A stretch of 64,000 bases of DNA from NCBI RefSeq assembly GCF_002910905.1, contig NZ_NEUE01000238.1, positions 1 through 64,000 on the forward strand. Direction: 5' to 3'. Under the pieces are notes generated by a model. It did not search any database. It had not been told where the DNA came from and saw only the letters and a program-made list of their open reading frames with translations. The stretch comes from Streptomyces sp. SM11 (GTDB lineage Bacteria; Actinomycetota; Actinomycetes; Streptomycetales; Streptomycetaceae). The position numbers and the translations under genes were made by a program. This document shows positions 2,608 through 36,020 of this stretch, in pieces. Positions within the stretch are counted from its first letter, which is position 1. Each line of letters opens with the position of its first letter.

Positions 2608-3774
2608 GTGAGGTCCATATGGAACGGCGCGATCTCCTTCGGGCTGGTCAGCATTCCGATCAAGCTGGTCAACGCCACCGAGAACCACTCGATCCACTTC
2701 CGGCAGATCCACCTCGCCGACGGCGGCCGGATCCGGTACCGCAAGGTCTGTGAACTGGACGAGGAGGAGATCGAGGCCGGCGAGATCGGCAAGGCCTACG
2801 AGGACGCCGACGGCACGATGATCCCGATCACCGACGAGGATCTCGCCCGGCTCCCGCTGCCCACGGCGAAGACGATCGAGATCGTCGCCTTCGTGCCCGC
2901 GGACCAGATCGACCCGCTCCAGATGGATGCGGCGTACTACCTCTCCGCCAACGGCGTCCCGGCCGCCAAGCCGTACACCCTGCTCCGCGAGGCCCTCAAG
3001 CGCAGCAACAAGGTCGCCGTCGCCAAGTACGCCCTGCGCGGCCGTGAACGGCTCGGCATGCTCCGCGTCGTCGACGACGTGATCGCCATGCACGGCCTTC
3101 TGTGGCCGGACGAGATCCGCGCCCCCGAGGGCGTGGCCCCGGACGCCGACGTCACGGTCCGCGACGCCGAACTCGACCTGGCGGACGCCCTGATGGACAC
3201 GCTCGGCGAGGTCGACATGGACAGCCTCCACGACGACTACCGGGAGGCGGTGGAGGAACTCATCGCGGCGAAGGCCTCCGGCGAGAGCGTGCTGCCCGCG
3301 CAGACCGAGGAGGCCGGCGGCGGCAAGGTCATCGACCTGATCGCGGCCCTGGAGAACAGCGTGCAGGCGGCCAGGAAGTCCCGGGGAGAGCAGGGGACCG
3401 GGACGGAGGACGAGGGCGAGGACGGCATGGCCGATGTCCGCCCCATCAAGAAGACGTCCGGAAGGGCCGCCGGGAAGAAGTCGGGGAAGTCGTCCGGGCA
3501 GACCACGAAGAAGGCCACGCGCCGCACGCCGACCGGCAAGACGGTCACCCGCTCCGGAAGCTCCACGACGAAGAAGTCCGCCCCCAAGTCCACCGGCGCG
3601 AAGAAGTCCTCGTCGACGGCGAAGAAGTCCACCGGAAGCGGCGGAAGCGGCGGAAGCCGGACGACCGCGACGAAGACCGAGGCGAGGAGGACCGCGGTGA
3701 AGAAGCAGACGTCGTCGAGCGGCGGCACCTCGGAGAAGAAGGCGGCATCCTCCCGCAAACGCGCCTCGGCCTGA
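2608..3774 (+). CDS. ku: DNA end-binding protein Ku
   Basis: Bacterial Ku forms a homodimeric ring on double-strand break ends and recruits LigD activities. The N-terminal part begins MRSIWNGAISFGLVSIPIKL, followed by the conserved FRQIHLADGGRIRYRKVC and the ring/bridge segment KVAVAKYALRGRERLGML with LLWPDEIR. The core ends near residue 260. A tail of about 120 residues follows, very rich in Lys, Ser and Thr (repeated KKS, TKK and TAKKS units), as in other Streptomyces Ku proteins; such basic tails are thought to add DNA contacts. The start is the GTG at 2608, followed directly by the conserved RSIWNG and preceded by AAGGGG. It is divergent from the ligD-like polymerase, so the pair is read as one repair module. 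Confidence 0.95.
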   Translation: MRSIWNGAISFGLVSIPIKLVNATENHSIHFRQIHLADGGRIRYRKVCELDEEEIEAGEIGKAYEDADGTMIPITDEDLARLPLPTAKTIEIVAFVPADQIDPLQMDAAYYLSANGVPAAKPYTLLREALKRSNKVAVAKYALRGRERLGMLRVVDDVIAMHGLLWPDEIRAPEGVAPDADVTVRDAELDLADALMDTLGEVDMDSLHDDYREAVEELIAAKASGESVLPAQTEEAGGGKVIDLIAALENSVQAARKSRGEQGTGTEDEGEDGMADVRPIKKTSGRAAGKKSGKSSGQTTKKATRRTPTGKTVTRSGSSTTKKSAPKSTGAKKSSSTAKKSTGSGGSGGSRTTATKTEARRTAVKKQTSSSGGTSEKKAASSRKRASA

Positions 3775-3904
3775 CAGCTACCCCGGCCCGGGCGGTCGGC
3801 CGGCGCCCGGCCCACGGCGTACGGCAGTCGGCCACCCGAGTCCGTCCTGCCGCTGGCGCGGCCCCCGCTCCCCGTTGTCCTACGCCCCCCGTACGCTACG
3901 GCCC

Positions 3905-7602: not shown

Positions 7603-9783
7603 TCAGATGACCCGGTTCGTGAACCTTACGGGTTCGGCGAGAGCCGAGGCCGCCCCGTCCAGATCCGCCATCCGGGCCGAGAGTGTGGCCTCGGCCAGCC
7701 GAGGAGGGAGAGCCGCGTTGAACTTCAGCCCTTGGAGGGCCCGGGGGTCCACCACCGGGAGGCACAGGCGCTCCCCGGCGTCGGACTTCGCCCGATGCCA
7801 TTCCTGCGACGTGAGATCTTCGCGGAGCCGCACATACATGTCGGTGGGACGCTGAAGAGGGTCGGATACCGATGCGAGCGTGGCTGCCAGTGTCGCGTTC
7901 GCCTTGTATCCGGCCCAGGTCCACCAGCGAACATTCGTGTCGCGGCCGCCACGCAGCAGCACCGTGCCAACAGGGTCCACCAGTTCCTTCCCCTTGGCGC
8001 GCAGCTGATCGAGAGCGCCGTCCGCGCGGCGCGTGAACGCCACCCGTGGTGTCGCGCCGAGCATGACCTCTCGGGCAGCTCGGGTCAGCGCGTAGGACGA
8101 CGTACGGGAGAGACCCACGCCGCCCCAGCGTGCCTTTCCACCGCCGTCGACCGGTTCGACGAAACAGCGGCGGCGCGACCAGTCGATGTAGGTCACCTGC
8201 CAACTGCGCCCGGCGAGCAGGAGACGACGTGGGCCCGCGACCCGCTCCGTCAGCAGGACGGGGTCCGCCGTACCGATCTCCGTGCGTCCGGTCAGGACGG
8301 TGAACTCCGGGGCGGCGGTGAAGACAGCGGTCAGGTCCATGAAGTGCCGATACCCGAAGCGTTTTTCCGCTTCGGGTCCGATGAACATCAGACCGGTGTC
8401 ACGGTTCAGGAACCCGGCTTCCAGCAGATGCCGTACGAGGGGCTCGGACGCGGGGCCGAACGGGCCCAGCCCGCCCCACCACTCCTGCCACAGGCGGTCT
8501 CCCACCCGCTGTTCCTGAAGACAGAGCGCGAGGATCTGCTGGGCGACGATGTGCCGGGGTTCCGGCGGAGCGACAATGGGCTCGACCCAGTCGCGTGTCC
8601 ACAGCAGCAGAAGGGCGGCCGCAGACAACAGTGCCGCCTCGTCGAGGGTCAGGAAGAGGCAGTTGCGTTGGGATCCGGGCCTGCGGCCGGTACGGCCGAG
8701 GCGTTGCAGGAAGGACGCCACCGTGCTCGGTGAGTCGATCTGGACGACGCGGTCGAGGTCTCCGACGTCGATCCCGAGTTCGAGTGTGCTCGTGGAGACG
8801 ATCACGCAGTCGCGGGCGTCGCTGAAGGCCTCCTCCGCACGTCTGCGCTCGTCAGCGGAGAGCGAGGCGTGTGACAGGAAAGTGGTGACACCTTTGGCGC
8901 GCAGGCTCTGCCCGAGCTCTTCGACCTGTTTGCGCGACTCGCAGAACACCAGACGCTTCTCGCCCCGGTGCAACGCGGCGATCACCGTGGCCGCGTTGGC
9001 CAGGGAACCCACGTAGTCCAGTTGGACATCGCCGGCGGGGGCCGTCTCCGAGGGAGCCGATGAGGGGGTCACCGCAGAGGGCGCCCGGGGAGCGATCACC
9101 CGTGCGCCATGATCGTCCAGCTCGTCACGGCAGCGTGCTCCTCGCAGCCACGTCAGCAACTGCTCCGGGTTTCCCACCGTCGCCGAAAGCCCCACGCGCT
9201 GGACAGGACGGCCCGCTACGCGTTCCAGCCGTTCCAGCACGGCGAGCAGGTGCCAGCCCCTGTCGTCGCCGGCGAAGGCGTGCACCTCGTCCACCACGAT
9301 GCCGCGCAGACCGGAGAAGAACGCCGTGTGGTCGACGTTGACACTGACCAGCATCGCCTCAAGTGACTCCGGGGTGGTCAGCAGCACGTCAGGGCGTTCG
9401 CGAAGGATGCGCCTCCTGCGGGTCTGGGCCACGTCCCCGTGCCAGAGGGCCGCGGTGCGTCCCAGCCAAGAAGTGTAGGTCTCCAGCCGGGGCAGCAGGT
9501 TGTTCAAGAGGGCTTTGAGCGGACAGACGTAGAGAAGGGATGTGCCGGTCCACCTCTCCCGTTCCATACGGGACAGCAGGGGAAAGCACGCCGCTTCGGT
9601 CTTGCCTCCGGCGGTGGGTGCGAGCAGCAGGGCGTCCGCGCCGCCGGTCAGCGGCCCGATGGCCTCCTCCTGGAGGGGCCGCAGCCCGGCCCAGCCAAGG
9701 GTGTTCACGATGTGATGGACGAGCCCGGGGTGAAGCAGATCGAGTGGATCAGTGGACCCGGCAGGTCCGGACGGCTCGCTCAT
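7603..9783 (-). CDS. brxHI: BREX type 2 helicase BrxHI (Lhr-like)
   Basis: A superfamily 2 DExH helicase of 726 residues. Visible motifs are Walker A APTAGGKT (55-62), PLKALLN (motif Ia, about 88), TTPESLE (136-142), DEVH (165-168), SAT (200-202), the C-terminal-lobe STSTLELGID and the arginine-finger motif QRLGRTGRR. The remainder resembles the Lhr-type C-terminal domain. BrxHI is the helicase of type 2 BREX systems; its exact step in phage exclusion is not established. It is the last gene of the BREX block and overlaps brxD by four bases (ATGA, 9780-9783), so the two are translationally coupled. Its 3' end abuts the truncated glyA, leaving only 141 bases, which contain two copies of CCCGGGAAGCAGG. 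Confidence 0.88.
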   Translation of the reverse strand: MSEPSGPAGSTDPLDLLHPGLVHHIVNTLGWAGLRPLQEEAIGPLTGGADALLLAPTAGGKTEAACFPLLSRMERERWTGTSLLYVCPLKALLNNLLPRLETYTSWLGRTAALWHGDVAQTRRRRILRERPDVLLTTPESLEAMLVSVNVDHTAFFSGLRGIVVDEVHAFAGDDRGWHLLAVLERLERVAGRPVQRVGLSATVGNPEQLLTWLRGARCRDELDDHGARVIAPRAPSAVTPSSAPSETAPAGDVQLDYVGSLANAATVIAALHRGEKRLVFCESRKQVEELGQSLRAKGVTTFLSHASLSADERRRAEEAFSDARDCVIVSTSTLELGIDVGDLDRVVQIDSPSTVASFLQRLGRTGRRPGSQRNCLFLTLDEAALLSAAALLLLWTRDWVEPIVAPPEPRHIVAQQILALCLQEQRVGDRLWQEWWGGLGPFGPASEPLVRHLLEAGFLNRDTGLMFIGPEAEKRFGYRHFMDLTAVFTAAPEFTVLTGRTEIGTADPVLLTERVAGPRRLLLAGRSWQVTYIDWSRRRCFVEPVDGGGKARWGGVGLSRTSSYALTRAAREVMLGATPRVAFTRRADGALDQLRAKGKELVDPVGTVLLRGGRDTNVRWWTWAGYKANATLAATLASVSDPLQRPTDMYVRLREDLTSQEWHRAKSDAGERLCLPVVDPRALQGLKFNAALPPRLAEATLSARMADLDGAASALAEPVRFTNRVI

Positions 9784-11114
9784 GGAAGGTCCAGCTCGAT
9801 CTCGTCGGCGTCGGTCGCCGCCGCGTTGCGCTCGATGTCGCTCATCTCGTTGGAACTCATGGTCAGCGCGTAGTGCTGACGCGGATCGAAGTCGTCGAAC
9901 TGGTCGACCCGGTCCAGGACGTCACCGACGAGCTTCTTGAGGAACAGCCGGGGCGCGACGCCAACCCGGCCTCCGAGAGCCCCGCCCACCGCGGCGGCCA
10001 GCTCCGAGATGTATGCGTCGTCCACGACGGCTTTGACCCGTCCGGAATCGCCGGCACCGTCCGCGTACAGGTCACGGATCGTGGTGCCGAGGCCCACCAG
10101 GGACGCGTGGGTGAAGCCGGGAAGCCGCACCTGCACGGCACGCGGGTTGTCGAAGCGGGGGTCGGTGGTGAAATCGGTGGCGAGCCGTTGCGCCAGCGGC
10201 GCCAGACGCTGCACGCCCTGTTGGCCTTCGAAGAACGCGGGGGTCCCCGTGATCAGCAGATACAGGCCGGGAAAGCGCCCTGAGTGCACCTCGTCGATGA
10301 GCTGGCGCAGAGCGTTGAGCGCCTTGTCCCGTGCGTCCGAGCGGACCCGCTGGAGTGTCTCCACCTCGTCCAGCACGATGAAGAGGCCCTTGTGTCCCGA
10401 GTCGCGCAACACGGTGAGCAGGCCCTGGAGGAAGCCGAAGGCCCCGAAGTGGTCGAGGTCGCCGCGGACACCGACGGCCCTGCGGGCCGAGGCGGCCACA
10501 TGCGGCTGGCCTCCCAGCCAGGCCAGCACGGCGGCCGCGGTTCCTTCGTCACCGGAGGTCAGTGCGGTGCGGTAGCCGCGGAGCGCGGTGGCGAAGGAGG
10601 GGGCGTGCCGGGACACCTCGCTGAGCCGTGCCGCCAGCAGCCGTTCCACCTCCCCCGCGAGATCCTCCTCGGCGGCGCCCGCGGACAGCGCGTCCTCCTC
10701 CAGCGCGTAGAACCAGGCGTCCACGACGGGGCGCAGCGCGCTCGGGGGAAAGCCGGAGGTCGTCAGTCGCTCGGTGAGACGGCGGTAGACGGTCTCCAGT
10801 TTGTGCAGGGGCGTTTCGGTCTCCGAAACCTGGATCTCGGCCACGGCGAAGTTGCGGCGCTTGGCCCGCTCGCCGAGCCACCGGGTGAAGAAGGTCTTGC
10901 CGGACCCGTATTCACCCCGCACCGCCTTGAAGACCGAACCACCCGAGGCCGCTGTGTCCAGTTCGGCGTCGACTGCCTCCTCGAACCTGCCGAGCCCGGT
11001 GGCGAGCAGATCGAGCCCGTTTTCCGGGACGGCTCCCCGGCGGAGGGCATCGATCACCTCGCGGCGGCGGGCGGCACTGACGGAACCGGTGCGTTCGAGG
11101 CGGTCGTTACTCAC
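9780..11114 (-). CDS. brxD: BREX ATP-binding protein BrxD
   Basis: A 444-residue AAA-like ATPase. Walker A is GEYGSGKT (67-74), Walker B is LFIVLDE (244-250), and a sensor-like LLITGTP follows. The N-terminal EVIDALRRGAVPENGLDLLATG is typical of the BREX protein BrxD. BrxD is expected to work with PglY/PglZ and the helicase BrxHI, with which it overlaps by four bases. The start ATG at 11114 faces the divergent DUF262 gene, leaving a 153-base shared control region. This separates brxD from pglZ, to which it is normally adjacent, by the inserted plus-strand module at 11268-14107, so brxD-brxHI probably has its own promoter here. Confidence 0.87.
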   Translation of the reverse strand: MSNDRLERTGSVSAARRREVIDALRRGAVPENGLDLLATGLGRFEEAVDAELDTAASGGSVFKAVRGEYGSGKTFFTRWLGERAKRRNFAVAEIQVSETETPLHKLETVYRRLTERLTTSGFPPSALRPVVDAWFYALEEDALSAGAAEEDLAGEVERLLAARLSEVSRHAPSFATALRGYRTALTSGDEGTAAAVLAWLGGQPHVAASARRAVGVRGDLDHFGAFGFLQGLLTVLRDSGHKGLFIVLDEVETLQRVRSDARDKALNALRQLIDEVHSGRFPGLYLLITGTPAFFEGQQGVQRLAPLAQRLATDFTTDPRFDNPRAVQVRLPGFTHASLVGLGTTIRDLYADGAGDSGRVKAVVDDAYISELAAAVGGALGGRVGVAPRLFLKKLVGDVLDRVDQFDDFDPRQHYALTMSSNEMSDIERNAAATDADEIELDLP

Positions 11115-11195
11115 TCGGCCAGTCTCGCATCCGACCGACCTCGGCGAACATGCGGCTGAAAATCGCCTCAGCGGATCATCGTGAGGGCCGAATGA

Positions 11196-11228
11196 TTGAC
11201 ACCAACGCTATTCCCTTGCTCCTATTAT
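11196..11228 (+). promoter_or_regulatory. Candidate promoter for DUF262/CBS-HEPN module
   Basis: An exact TTGACA (11196-11201) and TATTAT (11223-11228) stand 21 bases apart in an AT-rich patch within the brxD-DUF262 divergent region. The hexamers are consensus-like for a housekeeping sigma factor, but the spacing is wider than the usual 16-19, so one box may be misassigned. The AT-rich patch itself contrasts with the surrounding high GC. Confidence 0.35.
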
Positions 11229-11267
11229 CAGTTGCATAGTTTCGGTCGAAGGTGGGGAATAGGCAAC

Positions 11268-13076
11268 GTGGCGCTCGACAATCCGGACCTCAAGGACGTA
11301 CTCAAGGACGTCACATCCGGCGCACTTCAGTTGCCGGACTTCCAGCGGGAGTGGAAGTGGGACGACGAGCGGATCAGGGCGCTCATCGCGACGGTGACCC
11401 TGAAGTACCCGCTCGGCGTGGTGATGGCGCTGCACACCGGAGGCACTCCCCAGTTCAAGGCGCGAGCACTCAAGGGCGCGGAGGACGGTGAGACACAGGT
11501 GCCGGACCTGCTGCTGCTGGACGGGCAACAGCGGCTCACCTCACTTTTCCAGGCGCTGCACCAGGACAAGCCGGTGGAAACCGTCGACGCTCGCGGCAAG
11601 GACCTCAAGCGGTGGTATTACGTCGACATCGAGAAAGCGGTAGGGCCCGCGGCGGACCGGGACGACGCGATCGTCTCGGTGCCCGAGGACCGCATTCTCA
11701 AAAGGGACTTCGCCCGCAGGCCGGGACGAGATCTCAGCTCCGTCGAGCTCGAGTGCGAAGCCGGCTTCTTTCCCCTCCACTACGTCTTCGACACGCAACG
11801 GGTAGGCGCCTGGCAGCAGGAGTTCGTCAAGAATCCGGCCAACTGGCCCGTCTGGATGAAGTTCCAGGAGCAGGTACTGCACAACATGCTGTCGTTCGAC
11901 GTACCGATGATCAAACTGTCCGCCACCACCACGATGGACGCCGTGTGCGCGGTCTTCGAGCGAGTCAACACGGGCGGCGTGCCGCTCAACGTCTTCGAAC
12001 TGCTCACCGCCACCTACGCGGGCAATCAGGCACATGCCGAGGAGCACGGCGACTACTACCGTCTCCCGGACGAGTGGCACGGGATCAAGAAGAAGCTCAC
12101 CTCCGCCTATCCGGTGTTCGGCCGACCCGAGGCGGGGCCCGACGACGGCCTGAGCAGCAGCGACTTCCTCCAGGCCGTCGCCCTGGTCCGGACCTGGGAG
12201 GCCAAACGGTCGGGCCGCAGCATCTCGGTGTCCTGCAAACGCCGGGACCTGCTCGAACTGCCGCTGGAGGACTTCCGCCGGCTCGCACCGAGGGTGGCGG
12301 AGGCATTCGCCTGGGTGGGGGGCTTTCTGCGGCGCCAGTGCATCGTCCGCACAGCCGACCTCCCCTACCGCACCCAGCTGGTGCCCCTCGCGGCCGTCCG
12401 GGCCCTCATCGGCAACGAGACGGACAGCCCGGGAGCGGACGACCGGATCACCCAGTGGTACTGGTGCGGCGTGATGGGGGAGATGTACGGCGGGTCGACC
12501 GAGAGCCGCTTCACCCGTGACGTCGAGCAGCTGGTCAGCTGTATCCGCGAGGACGGCAGCGTCCTGGTGCCCGACACCGTCGCCGAGGCCGCCTTCCTCT
12601 CCGACCGGCTGGACACGCTGACCACCCGCAACAGTGCCGCCTACAAGGGCATCTACGCCCTCCTCATCAAGCAGGGCGCGGTGGACTGGTACTTCACCGA
12701 CGGCCCGCTGGTCCCCGACCGGCTGGTGGAGCACGCAGTGGACGTCCGGCCGATCTTCCCCAAGGAGTGGATCACGAAGAACCACCGAGGCCGCGCCGCG
12801 CACGCCAACTCGATCGTCAACAAGACCCCCCTCTCCCTGCGCGCCAGCAAGAGCATGACGGGCCCACCGCACGCCTATCTCAAGACGCTCACGCTGGAGT
12901 CGGGCGTGCGGCCGGAGTGGTTCGGCGACGTCCTGGTCACGCATCTCGTCGATCTGACCGCGCTGGAGACCGACGACTTCGAGACGTTCTACGAGCACCG
13001 TGCCGAGCGGCTGCTCGCGCTGGTGGACTCGGCCATGGGCAAGCGGACCGTCTTCCGCGACGCACAGGACCGGTGA
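11268..13076 (+). CDS. DUF262 (GmrSD-like) protein with degenerate DUF1524-type tail
   Basis: The N-terminal part has the DUF262 signature: LPDFQREWKW (22-31), YPLGVVM (47-53) and DGQQRLTSL (85-93), the ParB-like nucleotide-using motif of GmrS and BrxU. FERVNTGGVPLN (about 228-239) is another conserved block. The C-terminal part looks like DUF1524, the His-Me finger nuclease half: VRPIFPKEW near 493-501 sits where family members have HHIFP, and SIVNKTPLSLRASKSMTG follows as expected. The two metal/catalytic histidines are replaced by Arg and Pro, so cleavage may be lost or altered. GmrSD/BrxU proteins cut modified phage DNA. The start is GTG 11268 with GGGGA upstream. Its stop overlaps the next gene (GTGA). 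It lies inside the BREX locus but on the opposite strand. Confidence 0.78.
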   Translation: MALDNPDLKDVLKDVTSGALQLPDFQREWKWDDERIRALIATVTLKYPLGVVMALHTGGTPQFKARALKGAEDGETQVPDLLLLDGQQRLTSLFQALHQDKPVETVDARGKDLKRWYYVDIEKAVGPAADRDDAIVSVPEDRILKRDFARRPGRDLSSVELECEAGFFPLHYVFDTQRVGAWQQEFVKNPANWPVWMKFQEQVLHNMLSFDVPMIKLSATTTMDAVCAVFERVNTGGVPLNVFELLTATYAGNQAHAEEHGDYYRLPDEWHGIKKKLTSAYPVFGRPEAGPDDGLSSSDFLQAVALVRTWEAKRSGRSISVSCKRRDLLELPLEDFRRLAPRVAEAFAWVGGFLRRQCIVRTADLPYRTQLVPLAAVRALIGNETDSPGADDRITQWYWCGVMGEMYGGSTESRFTRDVEQLVSCIREDGSVLVPDTVAEAAFLSDRLDTLTTRNSAAYKGIYALLIKQGAVDWYFTDGPLVPDRLVEHAVDVRPIFPKEWITKNHRGRAAHANSIVNKTPLSLRASKSMTGPPHAYLKTLTLESGVRPEWFGDVLVTHLVDLTALETDDFETFYEHRAERLLALVDSAMGKRTVFRDAQDR

Positions 13077-14107
13077 GCGCCGCCATGTCCCAGCACCCCA
13101 CCGAGGCGGAGCTCCGCGCTCTCAAGGGCAAGCAGATCCCCGTGCTGCGCCTCCTGGCGCTCTTCGGCGCCCGCCTGCGGAACGAGCTGACGGTCCCGCT
13201 CATCGAACAGGCACTCAAGGACGCCGGTCTGTCGACCCTCCCGGACTTCGCCACGTGCGGCAGCGGCGCCGACATCCAGATCGTGGCCCGCGCGGCGGTT
13301 CCGGATCCCCCCGAGCCGTCCGAGGAGGAGCCGGAGGAACTGCCCGGCGGCGGGCTGCCACAGAATCCCATCAGGATCGGCGACATCCCGGCCGCCGTGA
13401 GCGGTCTGTGCTCGGTGACGCCGGACAAGAAGCTCTCCGAGGTCACCTATCTCATGCGGAGCAGGAACTACTCGCAGATCCCCGTCATCGAGGCCGGCTC
13501 GATCCTGCACGGCGTCGTCACCTGGCGATCGGTGGTCAAGGCCTACGAGAAGGTGAACCACCCCAGCCTGCCGGAAGCGCTCATCGACCCTCCCGTCGTC
13601 GAGGCGCACCACGACTTCTTCTCGCTGCTCCCACGGGTGAGCGAGGAGGGATATCTGCTGGTCCGTGCCAACAACGGATCGTTCAGCGGCATCGTGACCG
13701 CGGCGGACATCACCGAGAGGTTCGGTGCGACCGCCTGGCCGTTCTTCGTCATCGGGGAGATCGAGTTCCGGCTGCGCAAGTGTCTCGGCGCGAAGATCGG
13801 CCCGGACGCGATCCGTGCCGTCCAGCCCAACCAGGCGCGGATGCAGACGGGCCTGATCACCGACCTGATGTTCAACGGTTACGTGAAGCTGCTGGACGGC
13901 GAGCAGCAGAATCCGGCGCTGCGCGCGAAGGCCGACGAGAACTGGAAAGCCCTCGACTGGCGCATGAACCGCATCCAGTTCGTGCGCCAGCTCGACCGCG
14001 TCCGGGTCATCCGCAACAGCATCGCGCACTTCGACGCCGAGCCCCTCACATCGCGGCTGAGTGACGAACTGCGCGGCTTTCTCCGTATCCTGCGCGAACT
14101 CACCTGA
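13073..14107 (+). CDS. CBS-pair protein with C-terminal HEPN-like domain
   Basis: Residues about 100-220 form two CBS domains (IGDIPAAVSGLCSVTPDKKL...SQIPVIEAGSILHGVVTWR, then a second repeat ending FSGIVTAADITERFG); CBS pairs bind adenine nucleotides. The C-terminal helical part begins IGEIEFRLRKCL and ends with VIRNSIAHF, giving Arg314-x4-His319, the Rx4H motif of HEPN ribonucleases. Between Pro78 and Pro97 is an acidic linker. The N-terminal 60 residues have a helical pattern I do not recognise. A GTG at 13073 overlaps the stop of the DUF262 gene (GTGA), implying translational coupling; an ATG at 13085 is the alternative start. I infer a nucleotide-sensing, possibly RNA-cleaving partner of the DUF262 protein. 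The function is not established. Confidence 0.7.
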   Translation: MSAAMSQHPTEAELRALKGKQIPVLRLLALFGARLRNELTVPLIEQALKDAGLSTLPDFATCGSGADIQIVARAAVPDPPEPSEEEPEELPGGGLPQNPIRIGDIPAAVSGLCSVTPDKKLSEVTYLMRSRNYSQIPVIEAGSILHGVVTWRSVVKAYEKVNHPSLPEALIDPPVVEAHHDFFSLLPRVSEEGYLLVRANNGSFSGIVTAADITERFGATAWPFFVIGEIEFRLRKCLGAKIGPDAIRAVQPNQARMQTGLITDLMFNGYVKLLDGEQQNPALRAKADENWKALDWRMNRIQFVRQLDRVRVIRNSIAHFDAEPLTSRLSDELRGFLRILRELT

Positions 14108-14152: not shown

Positions 14153-17107
14153 CTACCGCAGCTCGAACTGTTCCCGCAGAAGCGCCTCGTCCAGTCGTAG
14201 CGTCCGTCCGTCCGGCAGCGCTTCCAGCACCTGCGCGCCGTCGAAGTTCAGCAATTGCCGCAGCACGGCTCCGAAACCGTCGGCCCCACTGGCGCGCACA
14301 CCCGCTCGCTGCGCCAGCGCGGTCACCGGCAACGTGCCACCGGCGTCCAGCAGCGCACGTATGGCCTTCTCCACCTGGAGCAGGTTGGGCTTGCGGGCCA
14401 GCACCGTGACCTGTGTAGCGAAGAGTTCGGACGCGAGCAGGTCGTCGACGAGCGCGTCCTGCGGCACCACCAGCCCGACCGAGAGCAGGGCGCCCCCTTC
14501 CGCAGGCGTACTCGGGGTGAGTGTGACGTCGAACAGCGCGTCCGGGCCCTTGTCGGCCTGCGGCCGCGTCTTCCTGCGCTGGACGGGCTTGAGAGGAGGC
14601 AGAGCCGCCGCTGACGTGCTCGCGGCCGGCCGCGGGTCGAGTGACCACCACGGCGGCTGCTGGCTGCCCAGCTCTCGCCAGCCGCCGGGCGGCTGGGCGC
14701 CGAACGGCAGGAACGCCAGCACCGGAATGGTGACCTCGGCCAGGGACGCCCCGCCGTGGTAGCCCGCCCGCCGGTCGGTGTAGCGGGAGTCGGCGTCCCA
14801 CAACGCCACGATCGCACCCCCCGGTTCCGGTGCGAGGACCCGTGGTCCGGCCAGCCGGATCTCCGCGTCGCCCACCGGCCCCCCGGCCACTCGGTGCCGG
14901 GCCGAGAGCGGACGGCCCGCGTCGGTCCGCACTCCGTGCCGGTCCACGACGTGGCCGTGATCACTGGTGAGGATCACCGCGCGACCCTGCTCGGCGGCCA
15001 GCCGCAGCAATTGCCGCAACTGCCCTATGTCGTTCAACCGCCAGCTGCCGTCCCCCAGCTTCTGGTCACCGGCCAGTCTGTCGTCCACGGTGTTCAGCAC
15101 CACCGCGACATGGGTACGGTCCCCGGCCAGCGCGTCACGCAGCCCTGCCCCGAGGGTGCTTCCGCTGCTCTCGCTCCGCAGATCGTCTTTGTGGAACACC
15201 GCGGCGTCCGCGCCGCCCCAGAAACGGTGGCCGGGGAACAGCCGCTTCTCGTCCGCCTGGGTGCCCGACATCAGCCGTGCGGCGAACAGGGAGGTCCGGG
15301 AGACCGACGTGACGGTCGGAAGCGCTGCGGCCATGCCCCGGCGCCGGGGTGTGCCCTTCGCCCTGGGCAGCGGGTCGTACTCGACCCAGTGTTCGCGCAG
15401 TTCCTCGCCCAGCTCGGAGGCGATCGCCGCGCTCATGCCGTCCAGGACGAGCAGCAGGACACGGCGCTCCCCGGCCTTCACCACTGGTGCGACTACCGTC
15501 GGCAGGAACGTCTCGACGGTCAGCATCATGCCGGGGTCGGTGCCGTTGGCAGTCCAGGTGGCGAGGAGGCCGGCGAAGCGACGGTCGATCTCGCGCCGCT
15601 GTTCGCGTACCGCGGCACAGAGGGTGTTGTAGGCGGAGGTGAGCGAGGGGGCGGGGTCACCTCCGGCCTCGATGTGGTCCAGGGCGAGGTCGACCCAGGC
15701 GGTCTCCGCCATGTGGCGGCCGATCCCGGCTTCGACGTGCGGACTTTCCGGTTCGGGCCCGGTGGCCAGCCAACGGGCCAGCCGCTGGGCCATCACGACC
15801 CGTCGGATACGGGTCCAGGCATCGGGGTCAGCTGCCTGCCGGTGCTCCTCCAGCGCGTCCACGGCACCGTTGATGCCCTCCGGTCCGCCGTCGGACAACG
15901 CGCGCCCCGCCGCGTCGAACAGGGCTTCCAGTCCCTCCGCGAGTACGGGACTTGTGCGGGCAGCCCGTTCCGCACCGAACTGGCGAACCAGTGAGGAGGC
16001 CCGGTCGAGCGTGGAACCGGCCAGGCGGCGTGCCTGTGCCGCCGGGTCCGGGGCACCGGTGCGCCCGGTCAGCAGGAGCCCGGAGACGAATTCCTCGCAG
16101 CACCGTCCGAATGCCGCCGCCATCGAGTCCAGTGCCTCGCCCCGTACGGGCGGCTCCTCGCCGAACCAGCGTTCGGCCCGCCCACGGGCCCGGTAGTCCT
16201 CGGCCTCGGCCCCGGGGCTCGCCCACAGGGCGGCGCAGACCAGCCCGAACGCCACGGCGTCCGGCCCGTGTCCGGCGTCGACCAGGGTGATCAGGGCCTG
16301 CCCGGCCGGCCCGGTCCGGTCATCCTTGCCCAGGAAGTCCGCCAGCCCGTCCCGCTCCGGCCTGCGCAGGGCCAGCAGCCGTTCGGGGCCGCCGGGCGTC
16401 AGCGACCACCGGAGCAAGGTGTGCACATCAAGGGTGTCGCCACTCGCGAGGGTTTCCGGCGGACCCTCCGCGGCCGGATCGCCGCTGGCTTCCGGCTCGG
16501 CCGACGCACCGGCGTCACCGTCGCCCGGGTCGCGGTCGGGGTCGTACCGACCGATGCCCAGCCTGCGCAGAGCGAGCGAGGTCAGGGCGGTGGAACGGGT
16601 GAGTATGCCGCCCCCGAGCTGCGGCCAGCCCCCCGGCGGGCTGGCATCCAGCAGAGCTTCGGCTGCCCAGTTGTCCTGTTCGAGACGCGGATCCCTCCCC
16701 CTGGCAGCGAAAGCCTCCCGCACGACGTCCCAGGTGTCGACCGCGTTCACCCGCTGCTTGTGCACCTTCGCCAGCAGGTCGGGCCCGAGGTCTGCCTCCT
16801 CCCGGTCGGTCAGGACCACCAGGACATCGGGCCCGGCGGCCGCCGGGCGCTGGTGGGCGAGGACCAGTTCGTACGCGGCCAGCGGCGAGGGGGCGCCCAC
16901 CACCACGGCCCGGCGTTGCTCGCCCCAGGTCAGCGGGGATGGGCCGTCCCACACGGGCTCCGCCCGCAGCAGCACCGCCCGGCGCTTGCCCTGGGTCAGG
17001 CCTGCGGACTGCGAGGCCAGGTACTGGGTCACGGTAGCCGTGTTGAGCCGCACCGCGCCGGCCGCGGTGTTCGTCGCACCGGCCGTGCCGGTCGTCGGCC
17101 GGTTCAT
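14153..17107 (-). CDS. pglZ: BREX/Pgl phosphatase-superfamily protein PglZ
   Basis: PglZ belongs to the alkaline-phosphatase superfamily and is the hallmark protein of all BREX systems. The core is recognisable by [17 protein letters not shown] (about 550-566), the nucleophile region, and by [16 protein letters not shown] (about 712-727), which supplies metal ligands. The first 500 residues are mainly helical and include an N-terminal segment with QRRAVVVG and a poorly conserved acidic insert (about 190-225). A C-terminal domain after a Pro-rich linker (about 835-875) ends in a winged-helix-like region. At 984 residues it has the usual length. Its ATG overlaps the pglY stop by four bases, so the YZ pair is coupled. 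In Streptomyces coelicolor PglZ is reported to be toxic without its partners. Confidence 0.92.
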
Positions 17108-20100
17108 TCCACCACCCGCCAGGTGATCTCGACGGTCGCGTCGGGCTCCGCCGCGGTCAGCCCCGCGAGCTCGGCCTGCAGTTCGGCGATGGCGCGGGCC
17201 GCCGTGGTCCGTCCTCCTCCTGACCGACGGGGAGCACGCCCCGGCAGCGGGTGGGTCGTCGGGACCGGAGGCCGGTTCGCTCCGGTGTTCAGGTCGATGT
17301 CGTTCGGTGTGGCGGGCCGGTCGGCCGCGGGGGCGGTGGCCGGAGGCGGAGCCACGGGTGTGGCCGGCTGGCTCCGGTCGATCACCGCCACGAGTGCGCT
17401 CCGCGCCTCGCCGAGCGCACCCTTCAGATCCGTGGTGCGCTGGTCGGCACGGGCTGCTCCACGCAGCGACTCCAGGACCGCCTCACCCGCCGCACCGTAG
17501 TTCGGGGCGAGCCTCAGCATGTCCCAGGCAGCTCCTGCCAGAGCCGAGGCCACCCCCTCGGCCTGCTTGACCGACGCCCCGTAGCGTCCTGCCGACACCT
17601 CACCGAGGTCGAAGCCGGCGAAGCCGGTGATGATCTGCTTGGCCCCCGCCGAGCCGCCGGCAGACTCCCGCTCCAGCGTTACCAGCGAGTCGAGCAGGTC
17701 CCGCGAACGGCGGGCCAGTGCGAGCCGGCCGCCTTCGTCCGCCTCGTCCAGGCCGAGCAGCACGGAGCGCTTCTCGAGCTCCCGTACGAGGTCGGCCGCG
17801 TGCGGCTGGTAGGTCCTGGCCTGGTGGCCGATCCGCCGGGCGAGCAGGCCGACCATCCGGCCGCGCCGCAGCTTCGGCGGCTGCTCCCCGAAGATCTCCC
17901 AGAACCGTTGTCCGGCCTCTTCCCAGACTGCTTCGTCCGGCAGCGGCTGGGAGCGGAGTGCGTAGACCGGCTTGACGGCGGACGGCTCGGGCGCCGGGTC
18001 GAGCAGGGAACCGCTCTGCACCCACACCCGGTCGTCCATCTCCGCGTAGGCGGCGATGACCAGGTGCGCCAGCAGCGGATCGAGCCCCATGGGAGCCGGC
18101 CGGTCGATCCACTCGGTGAGCTGGACGACGCTCAGATCGCCCGGGCCGCCCTCGGTACGGGCCTGGAGGCCGAAGTGGTCCACCCACCGGTTGGAGAGCC
18201 GGAAGTACGCCTCCTTCTGCTGCCCGAGGCCGAGTGGCGTGCCGATCCGCCGCATCGCGGACCGGTCCTTGGCCGGGATCTCCGCCTGCCGGTCGCCGGC
18301 CTCCGTCGCCGCCCGGATGTGCCCGAAGACCGTGCGGATGTCGGAGGACCGCACTGCCGTACCGGTGTTCTCCGGGTCCAGGTCGGGGTGGGCGGGGAAC
18401 TGGTGGGCCAGCAGCTTGTCCACGACATGGCGGATCCCGGCGTGCAGCGACATCCCGATGGACACCCGCAGCCCGGAGATGTCCGGCAGCGGCTCGAAGT
18501 GCTCGTTGAACGACACGTCGACGTCGCTCGGCTTCTTGTCCGCACATCCGTAGGCCTGTTTGAACGCGGCCTTCACCGCCTTGGTGAGTGAGTCCCGCTG
18601 TCCTTCGAGCAGACCCTTGGCGCGGGCCCGGTTGTCGGCGTTGAGGTGCCGCGCGTACACGGTGTCGAAGCGCCGCTGGTCCGCCAGCGCGTAGTCGATC
18701 ACGACCAGCCGCTGGAAGTCCTTGAACCGGGCGGCGGACAGGTGCGTCGGAATCCAGGCGACGGTACGGGGCCGGGCCCCGGGGAGGGTGCGCAGGGTGC
18801 CCATCCGGTTGGCGTCCTCGACGGGCCCCGACTCGCCCTCGTGGTAGGGCAGGTCCAGGACGATCCGCCACAGCCCGTCCTGACCGGGCGAGAAATCGTG
18901 GTCGGGGAAGTCGTCGGCGTCCGCGATGTTGCCGAAGACCACCTCCGCCGTGCGCTCCGATCCTCGCCAGACGAGGTGCAACTCGTCCGCGACCAGACGT
19001 TCCTGGAGCGATAGCCCCAGCTCCTCCGCGAGCAGCCGCTTGGCGAGGGCCCGCCGGTTGGACGAGCTGTTGTTCACGTCGGCGTTGGCGATGACGGAGT
19101 CGACGTCCACCCCGGCCAGCTCAAGCCGCACACCGGGATTGGCGTCCGTGCCGGTCGCCTTGATCTCGGCGAACCGCGAGGCCCACTCGTCGACCTTCGT
19201 CCTGATCACCCCGACCTCCGCACCGGGGATGGGGGAGAGGACCGAACCGTGGTTCAGGGCTCCGAGCCGCCGGATGGTCAGGTCCCGCAGGGCGGGCACG
19301 CTGGGCGCCAGCGCGGACAGCAGCAGCGTGCACATCAGCCGGTCGTCGCCGATGAAGCCCCGGCACCGGTTGGTCAGCTGCGGATCGGTGATGGTGTCAC
19401 GACGGTGCCGGTAGCGCTCGATGTCCTCCTCGGTGATCTCGTACGTGGCCAGCAGGTGCGGGCGGAGCTTGGCGCGGTACAGCTTGTCGGCCGCCTGGAA
19501 CTCCACCTTCAGACTGTCCACGAACGGCTTGTCCCCGCCGTCCGCGATCACGGGATACAGATCGCCGAGTGGGATCAGGTTGTCCAGGGTCGCGGAGTCG
19601 CGGTGCGCTGCCAGGAGCTGCCCCATCAGCTTCAGACCGGTACGGGACCGCTGAAGAGCCGAGGAGATGTGCACCAGCGTGTCCATGAACGCGGGCGTGA
19701 AGGGGTACGTCAGCCGGAACGACTCCTCGTCCGCGCCCGTCGTCCCCTCATCGGACCCCAGCAGCACGTCCCATACCTGGGGCCCGACCCGCTTGATCTT
19801 GGCGAATGCCGCGTCCAGCTTCGCGGCGGCCTCCGGGTTCTTCGGCGACAGCAGCCGGGCGTGGGCGACCTGGGGCAGGTTGCGGTCCTCCAGCGTGATC
19901 GTGTCGAAGCGCCCCGAGGCGAGTCGCAGACTGTCCTGGATCGCGGCCTCGGCCGCACCGGAGATCTCCTCGCCGACCAGTTCCCGCAGGTCACGCTGGC
20001 GGGCGATGAAAGACACGATCGGCACCGCCCGACGGGAGTCCGCGCCCTCGACGAAGTTCGTGATTTTGTCCGCCTCCCGGGAGACGAACTTCTGGTCGTG

Positions 20101-21027
20101 CACCCGGTTGGCGAGCCAGAGGATCAGCTCGTCCATGAAGAGGATCAGCCCGTGGTAGCCGAGCGACTTGGCGTGCTCGGCGATCACCGCGAGGCCGGCG
20201 TCCAGCGAGATGAAGCCGTGCTCGTCCTCGGCGGCGTTCCGGGTGAAACCGGGGAACCACGTGGCGCACGCGTCGTGCACGAGTTTGGCGCGCAGCTCGG
20301 CCGGGGTGCTCGGGTTGACCAGGTCGGGAGCGATCTCGTCCCCGCCCAGTTCCTCGGCCGCGAGCGCGGTGGACAGCAGCTCGGGAGTCCACGCGAACTC
20401 GTCGCCCCAGTCGTCCCCGTCGCCGTCGGATGCCTTGGCCCCGGCCTCCGAGTCCGCCCCGGCGAGACCCTGGATGAAGGCCGCGTCACCCATCCGCTCC
20501 CGGTGGGAGTGGATGTCCTGGAAGAGGGCGTCGGTCCGGTACACCTGCGGGGTCGGGGCCTGCGGATGGAGCGCCTTGACATGGCTGACGTATCCGCCGA
20601 GCACTCGCTGCTCCAGGGACTTGGCCCCGAGCATGTGGTAGGGCACGAGCAGGAACTTCTTGCGGTCGCCGCCCAGCCACTCGTGCTTGCCCAGGACCGG
20701 GTCGAAGTCCCTCCGCGCCCGTGCGGCCTCGTCCCCGCGCAGGAGCGCGTGCAGAACGGCCATGAAGTGTGACTTACCGGAACCGAACGAGCCGTGCAGA
20801 TACGCGGCCTTCGAGGTGTGCCCGTCCAGCGCGGCCTTGATCAGCCCGAGGGCCTCGTCGAAGTTCTCCAGCAGCCGTTCGGTGACGACGTAGTTCCGCA
20901 GCGCGTCCTCCGCACCGTCCTCGGTGACCGCCTCGGCGAGCTTGAGCACGTAGTCGGAGGTCGAGATGGATGTCTTGATGTGGAAGACATCCCGGAGGAG
21001 GGGGGCCGTGGCGGCTGTCGGGGCCAT
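17104..21027 (-). CDS. pglY: BREX/Pgl large ATPase PglY
   Basis: A 1307-residue P-loop ATPase, the type 2 counterpart of BrxC. Walker A is GSFGSGKSH (79-87) and Walker B is LILFMDE (294-300). KAAYLHG immediately precedes the P-loop, and further family blocks include [16 protein letters not shown] and [11 protein letters not shown]. The C-terminus has a low-complexity Pro/Ala linker followed by [13 protein letters not shown] and a terminal beta segment. I chose the ATG at 21027, which starts [20 protein letters not shown]; the open frame continues to 21867 but that part is the shadow of other sequence. AGGAG lies about 13 bases upstream. Unlike the canonical order, pglX is not next door: about 6.2 kb of cargo separates them, so pglYZ needs its own promoter in the 203 bases upstream, which carry a run of GGGA repeats. 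Confidence 0.92.
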
Positions 21028-21152
21028 CTCTGTCTCGCTTCTCCTGGATTTCCTGCGTGTGCGGCGATCGGGCGTCCCGCCGCGGGCGGCTGCGCGCACG
21101 CCTGCGGGCCCGGCTCCGATCGTATCCGGCTGGGAGGGCTGTGCGGCGGGGT

Positions 21153-21171
21153 GGGAGGGAGGGAGGGAGGG
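21153..21171 (+). repeat. (GGGA)4GGG tract upstream of pglY
   Basis: Five GGG runs separated by single A residues form a perfect G-quadruplex-type sequence and a tetranucleotide tandem repeat. It lies about 125-145 bases upstream of the pglY start, in the 203-base gap that should hold the pglYZ promoter. The G-rich strand is the plus strand, which is the template for pglY. Tandem tetranucleotides can change copy number by slippage. Confidence 0.7.
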
Positions 21172-21230
21172 CTGAGGAGACCGGGCCCCATGGCATTCCG
21201 CCGCCCTCTCCGCCATGCCCGCGCAGCGGG

Positions 21231-21860
21231 CTACGGAGCCTTGCTCGCGGGCGGAGGCGTGATGGACGGTTCGATGGTCGACCGGACGTAGATCCGCGTG
21301 GTGCCGGGTGTGAACTCGTGGGCGAAGAGGTCGACGCAGCGTTGGAGGTACTTGCCCTCCGGGGACGCGAGGCCGTCCGGGCACAGGCTGGTCATCCGCA
21401 GCCCTTGGACGAACGTCTCCGGTTCGGGAAGCCCGAGGTGATCGAAGGCGGCTGCCGGGCGGTAGCCCTTTCCCTTGGGGTGGGAGTTCGCGATCATCAC
21501 GGTGCCCTTCTCGATGAGCCGGCCCGTGTACGTCACCGCTTCCTCGCTCGGAAGGACGAAGGACAGCAGACCGGTGTCGTATCGCTGCCCGACCTTGTAG
21601 CTCGCGCGCCTGTCCGAAGCACCCTCCGGAATGCGGATACCGAGCTCGCCGCTCATCCAGGTGGGCGTGGCTCCGTCCTCCCAGCAGCAGGTCATCTCCT
21701 GGTCCGTCAGGTCCGACGACACGTCGTCGGCGACGCAGGAGACCACCCCGATCGTGGCGGCGACGCAGGCGAGGAGCACCAGGACGACGACGACTGCGAC
21801 CGGCGTACGACGGCGACTCACCGGCCGCTCGCCGACAGTGGGCCTGCTGGAGCTGCTCAT
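21231..21860 (-). CDS. Single-pass membrane or exported protein, unknown
   Basis: A 209-residue protein with a short basic N-terminus (SRRRTPVA) followed by a strong hydrophobic segment, residues about 20-42 (VAVVVVLVLLACVAATIG), acting as membrane anchor or uncleaved signal. The outer part has five Cys (CVADD, TCCWED, LCPDG, RCVDL) that could form disulfides. I do not recognise the family. The ATG at 21860 lies a few bases after the stop of the small gene at 21868-22098 and the three genes read in the same direction, so this is probably the last gene of a small operon with the ESX-like protein. Such trios with a predicted exported protein are common in Streptomyces. No functional claim is made. 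Confidence 0.65.
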   Translation of the reverse strand: MSSSSRPTVGERPVSRRRTPVAVVVVLVLLACVAATIGVVSCVADDVSSDLTDQEMTCCWEDGATPTWMSGELGIRIPEGASDRRASYKVGQRYDTGLLSFVLPSEEAVTYTGRLIEKGTVMIANSHPKGKGYRPAAAFDHLGLPEPETFVQGLRMTSLCPDGLASPEGKYLQRCVDLFAHEFTPGTTRIYVRSTIEPSITPPPASKAP

Positions 21861-21867
21861 CGGTCAT

Positions 21868-24177: not shown

Positions 24178-24179
24178 TC

Positions 24180-24618: not shown

Positions 24619-24654
24619 TCGTGGGGCTTCCTCCCTCGCGGGGCGGCCTGGGGG

Positions 24655-27253: not shown

Positions 27254-27287
27254 CCACTTGTACGTCGCACCTCGGGAATCGGCTACG

Positions 27288-30200
27288 TCAGCGGCTGGCC
27301 GCACGCCTCCCGCGCGTGGCCGGGGCGGGGCGCCAGGTGCGCAGATCCTCGTCGGTCAGGCCGCGATCGCCCTGCTGGGTAGCACGGTAACCGGCGAAGA
27401 AGGCGGCAGGGCTGCTGCCGTACAGCGGGTCGAACTCGTTGTGCCACTGGTCGAGCCAGGGCTGGAGTTCCAGCACACCCGCGAGGAGTGGCGTCATCTC
27501 TTCCGTGGACAACTCGTGCTCGTTGGTGAAGTACGTCGTCAGCGCCTGGGCCTGCTCGCGGTGGTCCCATCCCATCCAGCCAAACAGCTCTGGGGTGCCG
27601 GAGATCGGGCCGGTGGCGTACGAGATGAACCGCTCCTTCGGCACGTCCAGCTTGCCGCGCGCCCGCCAGTAGGACGGCTTGAGGAAGTCGGCCGAGGTGT
27701 ATTTGGACGGTACGGGGATCGAGTCCCGGATCTTCCGCTTGGCCGGCTCGTCCGGGGCGGCGTCCTCCAGCCGCTGGAGATCCCACACGTGCTCCCACTC
27801 GGCGCGCTTCTTCAGGCCGGAGGGCTTGTAGCGCATGGCGGCGAGGAAGGGCACGTGCTCCTCGGAGAGGAGGTCGGCGACGACGGTCGCCAGCTCCTTG
27901 CGGGGGGCGTACAACTCGGCTACGGACACGAAGTCCTCATCGAGGGAGAGCGCGGAGGTGAGCTGGGTGCGGGTGAGGACGGTCGGCTGGCCGTCCTGGA
28001 ACCACAGGTCACGGTTCTCGATCCTGTCGAGCAACCAGGACTTGAGGGCCCGTTCCTGAAGAACGTCCCAGCCTTCGGTCGCCCAGCGCCGTTTGTACTC
28101 GGGGCGCTCGATCATGCCGATGGCCCGGGAGGTCTCGATGACGTCGATGCGCTTCTGAACGACGGCCTTGTAGGCGTCGGACCAGTGGTCGGGCATCTCG
28201 GTGATGGGGGTGGAATCGTGCCGCTTAAACCACTCGCCGGACGCCTCGCCCTTTGCGACCCGCCGCGCGAGGACGATCTCGAAGGCGCGCTCACCGAGGG
28301 CAAGTTCGGGGACCTCGGGTTCTGGGGCGCGCAGGTCTTCGGAGTGCAGCTTGTAGAGGGAGTAGACCTGCCAGTCCAGCTCCTCTTGCAGGGCGATCAT
28401 CTGAGTTTGCAGAGAGTGCCAATTAGCTCGAGCTGCGCCCATATCATCGAAAGATGTGGATCGAATTAGTACATCGGGGCTAGCGGATGCGGAATCCCTA
28501 GCAAGCGCGTCGAGGTTAACTCCAACAGTCGGATACGAGTCGGGGATTGGGAATTCTTCGAGCTTGTTTCCTGTGAACTCGAACCGATGCTCCCACAACT
28601 CGTCCGAGATCCCTCCGCCAACTCCCCCGTTCCCCTTCGATTGGCTTACTTGTTTCATCCAGAAGCAGGCGGTTGAGCTATTCAGTAGGCCGATTAGCTT
28701 CAGATGCTCCTCCTCGCTCGCCTCTTCTTTTAGTTTTATCACTGGCGCGTGACGGTTGAAAATTTTACCGCCCCGATCGAGCGCAAAATGATTATGTGTT
28801 GTCACGAACGCGAAGGTGATGGACAGCGGAGTGCTGTAGGCGGAGGGAGTGTATTGCATGTAGTCCCACCAGTTTAGGCCTGCAGCAGCCATGTCGCCTT
28901 GAAAGGTTCTGCGTGTTTCGAGAACGCGACGGGTCGGCCACAGCTCCTTGAGCAGCGCTTCTTTGTTGGCATGCTCGGTGTACGGGGAAATGATCGATTC
29001 TTGGGGTTTGGTTTGCCAGTTCCTCACCGCCTCGCCTGTCATGAAGGGAACGGGGCCACCGAGACTAGTTGAGATGCGATTCGCTAGGTGGGCGGGGCGC
29101 AGGTAGGCGCCATCGGCACCGACTCTGACTGCTCGGCCAATTGGAGGAACGATTGCCGTTCGGAGGCGCTGGGACCTGGCGGCGTCCATCTTCTCTACCA
29201 TCTCAAGTCCTCCGTTGGTGAGGATCCATGGATGCCGAGAGAAGTACCTTTCGCGTTCGAGGTCGTCTACAGAGACCCACTGGCTGGTTGTTCCAGGGTT
29301 ATCGATCTGGTCGACAATTGCCGTCCATACGAGACCATCCTCGCCGTGATCTGGTGCTTTCGGTTCGCCCTGGATGCTGCGTACCGCGCGGACTCTGACT
29401 TGACGTTCGGTTCCTGCTCTACGTCGACCGACGAGAATGACGGTAGGTGTTCCGTGCTCTGGAATGTAGGCGCCGGAAGTGTCGATAACCTCTGTGAGTT
29501 CAACCTTGTGGGCAAAATAATCAGTGATTAGCGAGGTGCCGAAGTCGCGTTTCATGAACGAATTTGAGGTGATCTGTCCCACCATTCCGTACCCGCGAGT
29601 GTCCCTGCCCGGCGCTTTCGCGAGCTGAAAAAATCTTTCGGCGAATGGGACAGAGAGTGCATATGTCCCCTCGCATGATGCGTACAAGCTCCGATACAAA
29701 ACATTCAGCTTCTTATCCTTCACCGTGATATAGGGGGGATTCCCCACCACCACGTCATACCTCCCCCGCTCCAAAATCCCCGGATAGTCATCCAGGTCCT
29801 CCGTCGCATAGGAGAAGTCCACCAGCCGCTTACCGGTGTCCGGATTAAAGAGATCGATCTCCTGCTGTCGGTCCTCGATCAACGAGTCGCCCACCGCCAA
29901 GTGCACCGGCCAGTCGTACCGCCCCGCCTCCGCCAGCGTCCGCACATTCGCCGCCGCCATCGCCGCCAGCAGCAGCCGGAACCGGGCGATGGCCACCGCG
30001 AACGGGTTGATGTCCACCCCGTGCACGGAGTTCAGCGCGTCCCGCACCCGCTCGTGCACATCCCGGCCCGGCTGCCGTTCCGCCCACAGCTTCACCATCC
30101 GCCGGAACGCGCCCAGCACGAAGTGACCCGACCCGCACGTCGGGTCGATCATCTTCAGCTCGCCGAACCGGCCGCCCAGCTCCCGCACCACCGGGCTCAT

Positions 30201-35800: not shown

Positions 35801-36020
35801 ACGCCGTCCCCGCTCCGCTTCCGTGGTGTCCGGGGATTCGCGGCGTCCTGTTCGCTTCAGCCACGGAGAAATCCCCCGACCGATCGTATCGGCTGGGCGC
35901 GATTGCCTGCGCCTGTCGCGGGGGCTTCGGAATCTCGTGGGCGGTGCTTCGCCGGACACCGGGGAACGTCGAGTGGCGGTATCGCGGTGATGCTTCGTGA
36001 CGGGCGTGGAGCCTGAGGCA

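Follow-up and report, generated by a model that had tools for sequence, protein, structure and literature searches.

What is a pair of overlapping genes doing in the middle of a bacteriophage exclusion (BREX) type 2 locus, on the strand opposite to its neighbours? The question is raised by a 64,000-nt stretch of Streptomyces sp. SM11 (contig NZ_NEUE01000238.1, positions 1–64,000; hereafter the window, whose proteins supply the residue numbers), in which a gene for a DUF262 protein (gene 1) and a gene for a protein joining a CBS pair to a HEPN domain (gene 2) lie between brxD and pglZ. An earlier note on this DNA had read the pair as a defence module. Here we find that gene 1 belongs to a clade of paired proteins lacking the HNH histidines, that gene 2 is kin to the anti-phage protein DS-11, and that the two genes are coupled, co-occur and are repeatedly placed in BREX type 2 loci. 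We consider it an even call that a nuclease-dead relative of type IV restriction enzymes here acts as a nucleoside triphosphate (NTP)-dependent sensor gating a DS-11-like HEPN RNase, as an accessory form of abortive defence that frequently occupies a BREX type 2 slot.

The window locus is BREX type 2, as the earlier note had stated: PADLOC and NCBIfam together identify pglW, pglX, pglY, pglZ, brxD and brxHI, all present in the window. Both reading frames of the pair were confirmed as the note had placed them, on the plus strand between brxD and pglZ and joined by a GTGA overlap (Table 1); they run antisense to both flanking genes. The whole genome yields one GmrSD_N match and one real CBS–HEPN match, and the pair is therefore single copy.

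Gene 1 matches the Pfam family GmrSD_N (PF03235) with an E-value (E) of 5.5e-27 and 95.6 bits, against a cut-off of 33.2; the NCBIfam scan of this protein returned no family. In an alignment of DUF262 proteins from pairs, the mean column identity is 67% and the DGQQR motif is invariant (32/32). The structure model, which draws on 32 pair sequences (mean predicted local distance difference test (pLDDT) 89.8) has BrxU as its closest solved structure (Foldseek E 3.3e-13; Z 20.4 over 479 residues, root-mean-square deviation (rmsd) 19.6); next come SspE (Z 11.7) and DndI (Z 10.4). The BrxU likeness proposed in the earlier note holds for domain and fold; it is unlikely to extend to function, because the catalytic histidines of the HNH domain are lost. 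The catalytic motif of the GmrSD-type HNH domain is given as E/D-H-N-N (PMC4619093), and gene 1 departs from it twice, with RP in place of HH and a replaced later Asn, which a few deep branches retain. None of 66 pair DUF262 proteins has HH at this position, versus all 12 readable unpaired relatives (a thirteenth is cut by a contig end); the pair proteins carry RQ (52), RL (6), RM (3) or, once each, RP, RH, RY, HL and VR. On account of the lost histidines we reject the reading of gene 1 as an ordinary BrxU.

The unpaired relatives comprise proteins on plasmid or phage records (37–41% full-length identity) and in other actinobacteria (31–45%). Two short, weak CBS-like matches occur in their scanned flanks, which extended to about 7 kb in most plasmid or phage records (at most 3 kb towards the ends of a single short record) and to at most about 1.5 kb in the others. 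In a DUF262 tree of 77 sequences, made by a quick method with a midpoint root and showing long branches among the unpaired rows, a single branch splits the HH relatives from the pair proteins with a Shimodaira–Hasegawa-like approximate likelihood ratio test (SH-aLRT) support of 97; L187, cut by a contig end, and L189 were left out, and L183 was trimmed to 640 residues. Since HH occurs in none of the 66 pair proteins and the two groups part at one branch, the nuclease site appears to have been lost in the pair clade, most simply once, and the pair DUF262 proteins probably no longer cut DNA. The same tree gives six changes in BREX association, an approximate number because L119 and L123 were labelled as lacking BREX before pglW was found beside them. 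One HH-intact relative, on a Nostoc plasmid (L177:6971-8812), directly follows the DISARM genes drmA, a DUF1998 gene and drmC.

Gene 2 comprises an N-terminal domain (residues ~10–72 in the structure model), the CBS pair and the HEPN domain. The CBS part, already named in the earlier note, is identified both by Pfam (one CBS domain, PF00571, E 1.7e-9) and by the model, in which the CBS pair resembles that of MJ0100, which binds S-adenosylmethionine or methylthioadenosine (Z 15.5, 121 residues, rmsd 2.4). Pfam HEPN models call no domain in the window protein itself; the HEPN assignment, also made in the note, stands because relatives match HEPN profiles and key residues are invariant. HEPN_Swt1 matches 10 of 29 relatives (best E 6.4e-5), six more HEPN-type models (pEK499_p136, RiboL-PSP, Apea, DUF4145, MAE_28990 and Cthe_2314) match a few, and the C-terminal R, N, H and F are the same in 29/29. 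Across 37 members, the HEPN R is found in 37, the H in 36 with one gap, and E231x3R235 in 37. The HEPN signature is described as an Rx4–6H that closes the helix before the final helix, plus an Ex3[KR] (PMC3710099); gene 2 has both, and in its model R314–H319 ends helix 300–317, ahead of the last helix, 327–343. In PADLOC, the weak hits of family members are chiefly to CARF–HEPN proteins (9 members out of 37; best E 0.01). Fold comparison barely tested the HEPN part, because CBS domains filled the PDB comparisons of the CBS–HEPN model, and single-domain fold matches were discarded as evidence; querying the PDB with a profile of just the HEPN part turned up no relative (one match, E 1).

The CBS–HEPN partner had been unfamiliar to the author of the earlier note. 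NCBIfam NF053863 (DS11_antiphage) models its relatives: gene 2 matches it over residues 27–340 (E 5.1e-68) with a score that lies under the curated cut-off, and an Escherichia coli relative (L032) scores 404.9 bits. DS-11 is reported as a one-protein E. coli anti-phage system with CBS and HEPN domains, whose defence requires the CBS tyrosine Y157, a predicted adenine contact, and the HEPN catalytic residues; its authors describe the adenine derivative as still to be discovered (PMC13092281). Residue 157 of the E. coli DS-11-type protein in our analysis is Tyr and falls in the same alignment column as Y133 of the window protein, which retains both essentials, the CBS tyrosine and the HEPN residues R314 and H319. 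The N-terminal domain, CBS pair and HEPN domain follow in the same order in the two proteins, which share 27% identity. The reported anti-phage activity of DS-11 (PMC13092281) partly backs the defence reading of the pair.

Near-identical copies of the E. coli DS-11 gene occur in 128/5426 complete E. coli genomes; in L032:14632-15729 and L058:19933-21030 it stands alone, adjoining an integrase gene and itself downstream of ypjA. On haloarchaeal plasmids (L034:8938-9705, L036:8938-9705), a CBS–HEPN-like protein of 255 amino acids lacks the N-terminal domain and ends in RNALLHF. A single-protein query of viral_contigs confirmed no relative of gene 2, and none was found in the phage collection.

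How firmly the two genes belong together was assessed in 392 same-genus genomes, 67 of which have a CBS–HEPN match at E ≤1e-5. The comparison covered 66 CBS–HEPN places, after removal of six fragment rows and of the window's own entry (nine fragment rows were also left out of a second listing), and the DUF262 search took in 80 chosen genomes. At 36% identity or more, a threshold for the close set chosen after viewing the list, a same-strand DUF262 gene lies at most 1.4 kb upstream in 40 of 42 places; below it, none of 24 has one directly adjacent, two having one at ~3.2 kb. The partner is thus present for 40/66 places overall. A second set, 73 named loci drawn from one seed pattern of pair-type proteins, has both genes in 67, a fraction that overstates the general partnership because of that seed; the genus figure is less biased. 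At L129 only ~100 bases lie upstream, and the lack of DUF262 there is uninformative. The CBS–HEPN frame is interrupted or altered in three of the 73 (L064, L068 and L111), through decay or sequencing error. Genes 1 and 2 share the identical 4-base overlap in 45 of the 67 pairs. The counts by which the earlier note proposed to check its two-gene unit therefore support it.

BREX core genes accompany 47 of these 67 pairs, which gives numbers to the placement inside BREX type 2 that the note had seen once. In 42 loci the pair lies antisense in the pglZ–brxD slot and in two Nocardia loci co-directionally in the same slot, a recurrence beyond what chance would give; the others are L094, L119 (Frankia) and L123 (Nonomuraea), the last two with the pair adjoining pglW and BrxD on the same contig. 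Seen from the BREX side, a CBS–HEPN gene lies within 30 kb in 30 of 60 loci whose BrxD is at least 77% identical to that of the window (28 of them within 6 kb) and in 0/29 with a more distant BrxD in the genus sample; the pair is thus no core component of BREX type 2. It is no BREX-only part either, given that genomes without BrxD carry it: a whole-genome search of 27 genomes with the pair away from BREX or beside pglW found no BrxD match in 19, so that standalone pairs are real and a genome can harbour the module while lacking BREX. The same absence counts against the strict form of the earlier proposal, in which bypass of BREX would set off a backup.

The pair is gained and lost as one cassette, often kept in the pglZ–brxD slot. 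The BREX loci of L098 (Streptomyces sp. I6, with the pair) and L142 (genome G733, pairless) are 98% identical on both sides, and L098 holds 3.0 kb with exactly the two genes where L142 has 0.2 kb; L132 and L135 show the same presence/absence pattern with ~90% identical flanks, and in genome G470 a short CBS–HEPN fragment remains in the slot. On a BrxD tree of 43 pair loci versus 16 close and 2 distant pairless loci, presence changes 10 times, at least four of them forced. That brxD and pglZ are normally neighbours, as the note had assumed, is true of many relatives, but some carry other cargo there: an AIPR (abortive infection) gene in L143 and L146 (scanned) and, by eye, a similar one in L145; a PASTA-domain protein in L138; and a protein without an assigned family in L137.

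These features suggest a route from sensing to RNA cleavage. Gene 1 would descend from a GmrSD/BrxU-like type IV restriction enzyme, its DUF262 NTPase and fold kept and its catalytic histidines gone. Most likely it can still sense, with the help of NTP, a signal tied to phage or DNA and, in place of cutting DNA, would hand this signal to gene 2 by contact or through a nucleotide. The CBS pair would bind an adenine nucleotide, holding or releasing a HEPN RNase dimer; the released HEPN would cut RNA and halt infection, probably via growth arrest or death. The order would run from DNA signal to DUF262 to CBS to HEPN, in which defence by the pair, contact between its products, the trigger and the RNA target are the inferred elements. 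Put most sparingly, a type IV enzyme may have kept NTP-dependent sensing and swapped its DNA-cutting output for a nucleotide-controlled RNase partner. We offer a narrower version only tentatively: the nuclease-dead DUF262 protein might detect phage DNA that is modified or freed from BREX control and, by NTP turnover, activate CBS–HEPN through contact or through an adenine nucleotide made or depleted, as an abortive layer repeatedly housed in the BREX type 2 slot.

Several observations weigh against this sensor–effector interpretation. The 229.4 bits of gene 2 fall short of the 260-bit cut-off of NF053863, and DS-11 itself functions without a partner. The CBS tyrosine column in 37 relatives reads Y 26, F 6, L 2, V 2 and I 1, and the tyrosine is missing from one large BREX-embedded Streptomyces clade; this variation speaks against a universal ligand contact as judged from the alignment. 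The gene 2 model has a mean pLDDT of 90.2 and a predicted template modelling score (pTM) of 0.58, which leaves the arrangement of CBS and HEPN domains uncertain. For gene 1, the rmsd of 19.6 over 479 residues on BrxU means that the domains are differently arranged or that the model is uncertain; Cas9 HNH matches to residues ~455–573 are weak (Z ≤5.8), a level that can mean a common arrangement only, and a single H stands at the catalytic column in 1/66 pair proteins. Finally, inside BREX loci the divergence of the pair largely parallels that of the core (distance correlations 0.94–0.98 over 41 loci), so much of the pair–BREX association is inheritance.

The strongest competitor, which we regard as improbable though worth keeping in view, is a guard or toxin–antitoxin-like arrangement: CBS–HEPN would be constitutively RNase-capable and silenced by DUF262 until phage attack or BREX damage frees it. 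The overlapping genes in one operon would suit such a pair, as would the faster divergence of the effector (mean distance 0.52 for gene 2 vs 0.29 for gene 1, 41 loci) and the PARIS-type backup effectors described in BREX (PMC12839542). However, DS-11 is encoded alone in E. coli, so the family needs no antitoxin, and the 24 genus places below 36% identity have no directly adjacent DUF262. Somewhat less probable still is that the two proteins are independent, CBS–HEPN defending alone like the one-protein DS-11 (PMC13092281) and the DUF262 protein, its nuclease apparently dead, serving as a regulator or carried relic; a protein with such column identity and an invariant DGQQR, beside nearly every close CBS–HEPN gene, is unlike a relic. 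That the pair instead regulates BREX type 2, tuning core gene expression or activity, is very unlikely: it lies antisense inside the core cluster in 42 of the 73 named loci, but is co-directional in two Nocardia and beside pglW in two other loci, is missing at about half of the close BrxD loci and occurs in genomes without BrxD.

Away from BREX, other defence-related genes surround the CBS–HEPN gene. Among 40 loci compared (raw counts with no random-locus control), 13 have a member of a Ser/Thr kinase family that includes PglW, and 8 have a member of an SNF2 helicase family. In L157 and L116, PADLOC matches these kinases as PD-T4-6-like and these helicases as DrmD-like; a type IV restriction enzyme lies near L101 and a DpdE/ZorD-like helicase near L162. 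A kinase and a DrmD-like SNF2 helicase stand beside CBS–HEPN with the pair in L116, L157, L158 and L159 and without DUF262 in L056, L168, L169 and L170; in L157 and L158 the order on a single strand is DUF262, CBS–HEPN, kinase, helicase. This group is possibly an undescribed kinase–helicase defence operon. In the window itself, ~5.4 kb between pglX and pglY (21900-27290) encode a SUKH protein, a DNA/RNA non-specific endonuclease domain, an integrase-core fragment and a helix-turn-helix/DUF5753 regulator, and split pglW–pglX from the remaining BREX genes; the other BREX flank (1602-5734) encodes a LigD-type primase-polymerase, a Ku protein and a PD-T4-6-like Ser/Thr kinase.

Table 1. Coordinates of the pair, its domains and motifs, the BREX genes around it, and the alternative cargo of pairless loci (window positions unless a locus is named; ORF, open reading frame).
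Feature	Position	Strand	Basis
Gene 1, DUF262 protein, BrxU/GmrSD-like, HNH site decayed, 601-602 amino acids	11268..13076	+	GTG start; ORF, Pfam, fold
GmrSD_N (DUF262, ParB/Srx-like NTPase) domain, residues 8-250	11289..12017	+	Pfam
DGQQR nucleotide-binding motif, residues 85-89, intact	11520..11534	+	invariant in 32/32
HNH relic, residues 492-499, DVRPIFPK	12741..12764	+	unpaired relatives have D-I-H-H-[IVL]-F-P
GTGA overlap joining genes 1 and 2	13073..13076	+	sequence
Gene 2, CBS–HEPN protein, DS-11 relative, 344 amino acids	13073..14107	+	GTG start; ORF, Pfam, NCBIfam
CBS pair, residues ~96-221	13358..13735	+	structure model
Y133, aligned with adenine-contact Y157 of E. coli DS-11	13469..13471	+	alignment
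HEPN domain, residues ~222-344	13736..14104	+	structure model, motif conservation, relatives' profiles
HEPN Rx4H motif R314-H319, RNSIAH	14012..14029	+	sequence, alignment
Gap of 153 bases between divergent brxD and DUF262 starts, predicted promoter place of the pair	11115..11267		sequence
brxHI, BREX type 2 helicase	7603..9783	-	PADLOC
brxD, BREX type 2 ATPase	9780..11114	-	Pfam, PADLOC
pglZ	14153..17107	-	Pfam, PADLOC
pglY (BrxC family), start uncertain, match from residue ~288	17104..21867	-	PADLOC
pglX, BREX-2 methyltransferase, approximate start	27288..30875	-	NCBIfam, 1628 bits, over cut-off
pglW, BREX Ser/Thr kinase, approximate start	31076..35815	-	NCBIfam, 1685 bits, over cut-off
AIPR-type gene in pglZ–brxD gap	L143:1487-3235		scan
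AIPR-type gene in pglZ–brxD gap	L145:5223-6968		eye
AIPR-type gene in pglZ–brxD gap	L146:5684-7426		scan

If the sensor–effector interpretation holds, the pair represents a new wiring that couples a sensor of type IV restriction ancestry to an RNase output. Throughout the pair clade, the missing nuclease site goes together with gain of an RNase partner. A DS-11-type effector with a dedicated nuclease-dead partner allows the input to the CBS domain to be probed directly, and the near-identical loci with and without the pair (L098 and L142) make the question testable. The pglZ–brxD gap is likewise marked as a slot of BREX type 2 for accessory defence cargo.

Comparison with known systems places each half of the pair in familiar company. 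Gene 1 shares the DUF262 domain, DGQQR and overall fold with BrxU and GmrSD, and BrxU is also a BREX companion (PMC8565348), of type 1 (PMC12839542); the pair proteins differ in lacking the HNH HH (66/66), in being paired with an RNase-type gene and in residing in BREX type 2 rather than type 1. SspE and DndI, phosphorothioate-sensing DUF262 nucleases, resemble gene 1 in fold, and SspE is reported to link the sensing of modified DNA to NTP use (PMC10952713); they use their own HNH as effector, whereas the effector of gene 1 appears to be outsourced. PD-T4-2 appears under both DUF262 and HEPN in PMC10952713 and is a precedent for the idea of combining them; the PADLOC match of gene 1 to PD-T4-2_A is weak (E 0.011), no PD-T4-2 model matches any of the 37 CBS–HEPN members at E ≤10 (HMMER filters applying), and its listing in that paper makes no mention of a CBS domain. 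HEPN genes in Pgl/BREX operons have been described as backup effectors (PMC3710099, PMC12839542), and a survey from 2026 names HEPN and ParB–HNH proteins among BREX companions in general; its main text, supplements aside, contains neither 'CBS' nor 'DUF262' (PMC12839542). Open-licence PMC papers yielded no published description of a DUF262 and CBS–HEPN pair, and the papers listed for the MADS system contained nothing relevant. DS-11 comes closest to gene 2 in domain order, Rx4H and CBS tyrosine; E. coli DS-11 has no partner, unlike the window protein with its overlapping DUF262 gene. The effector family and the sensor family are thus both known, and what is new is their wiring and their genomic place.

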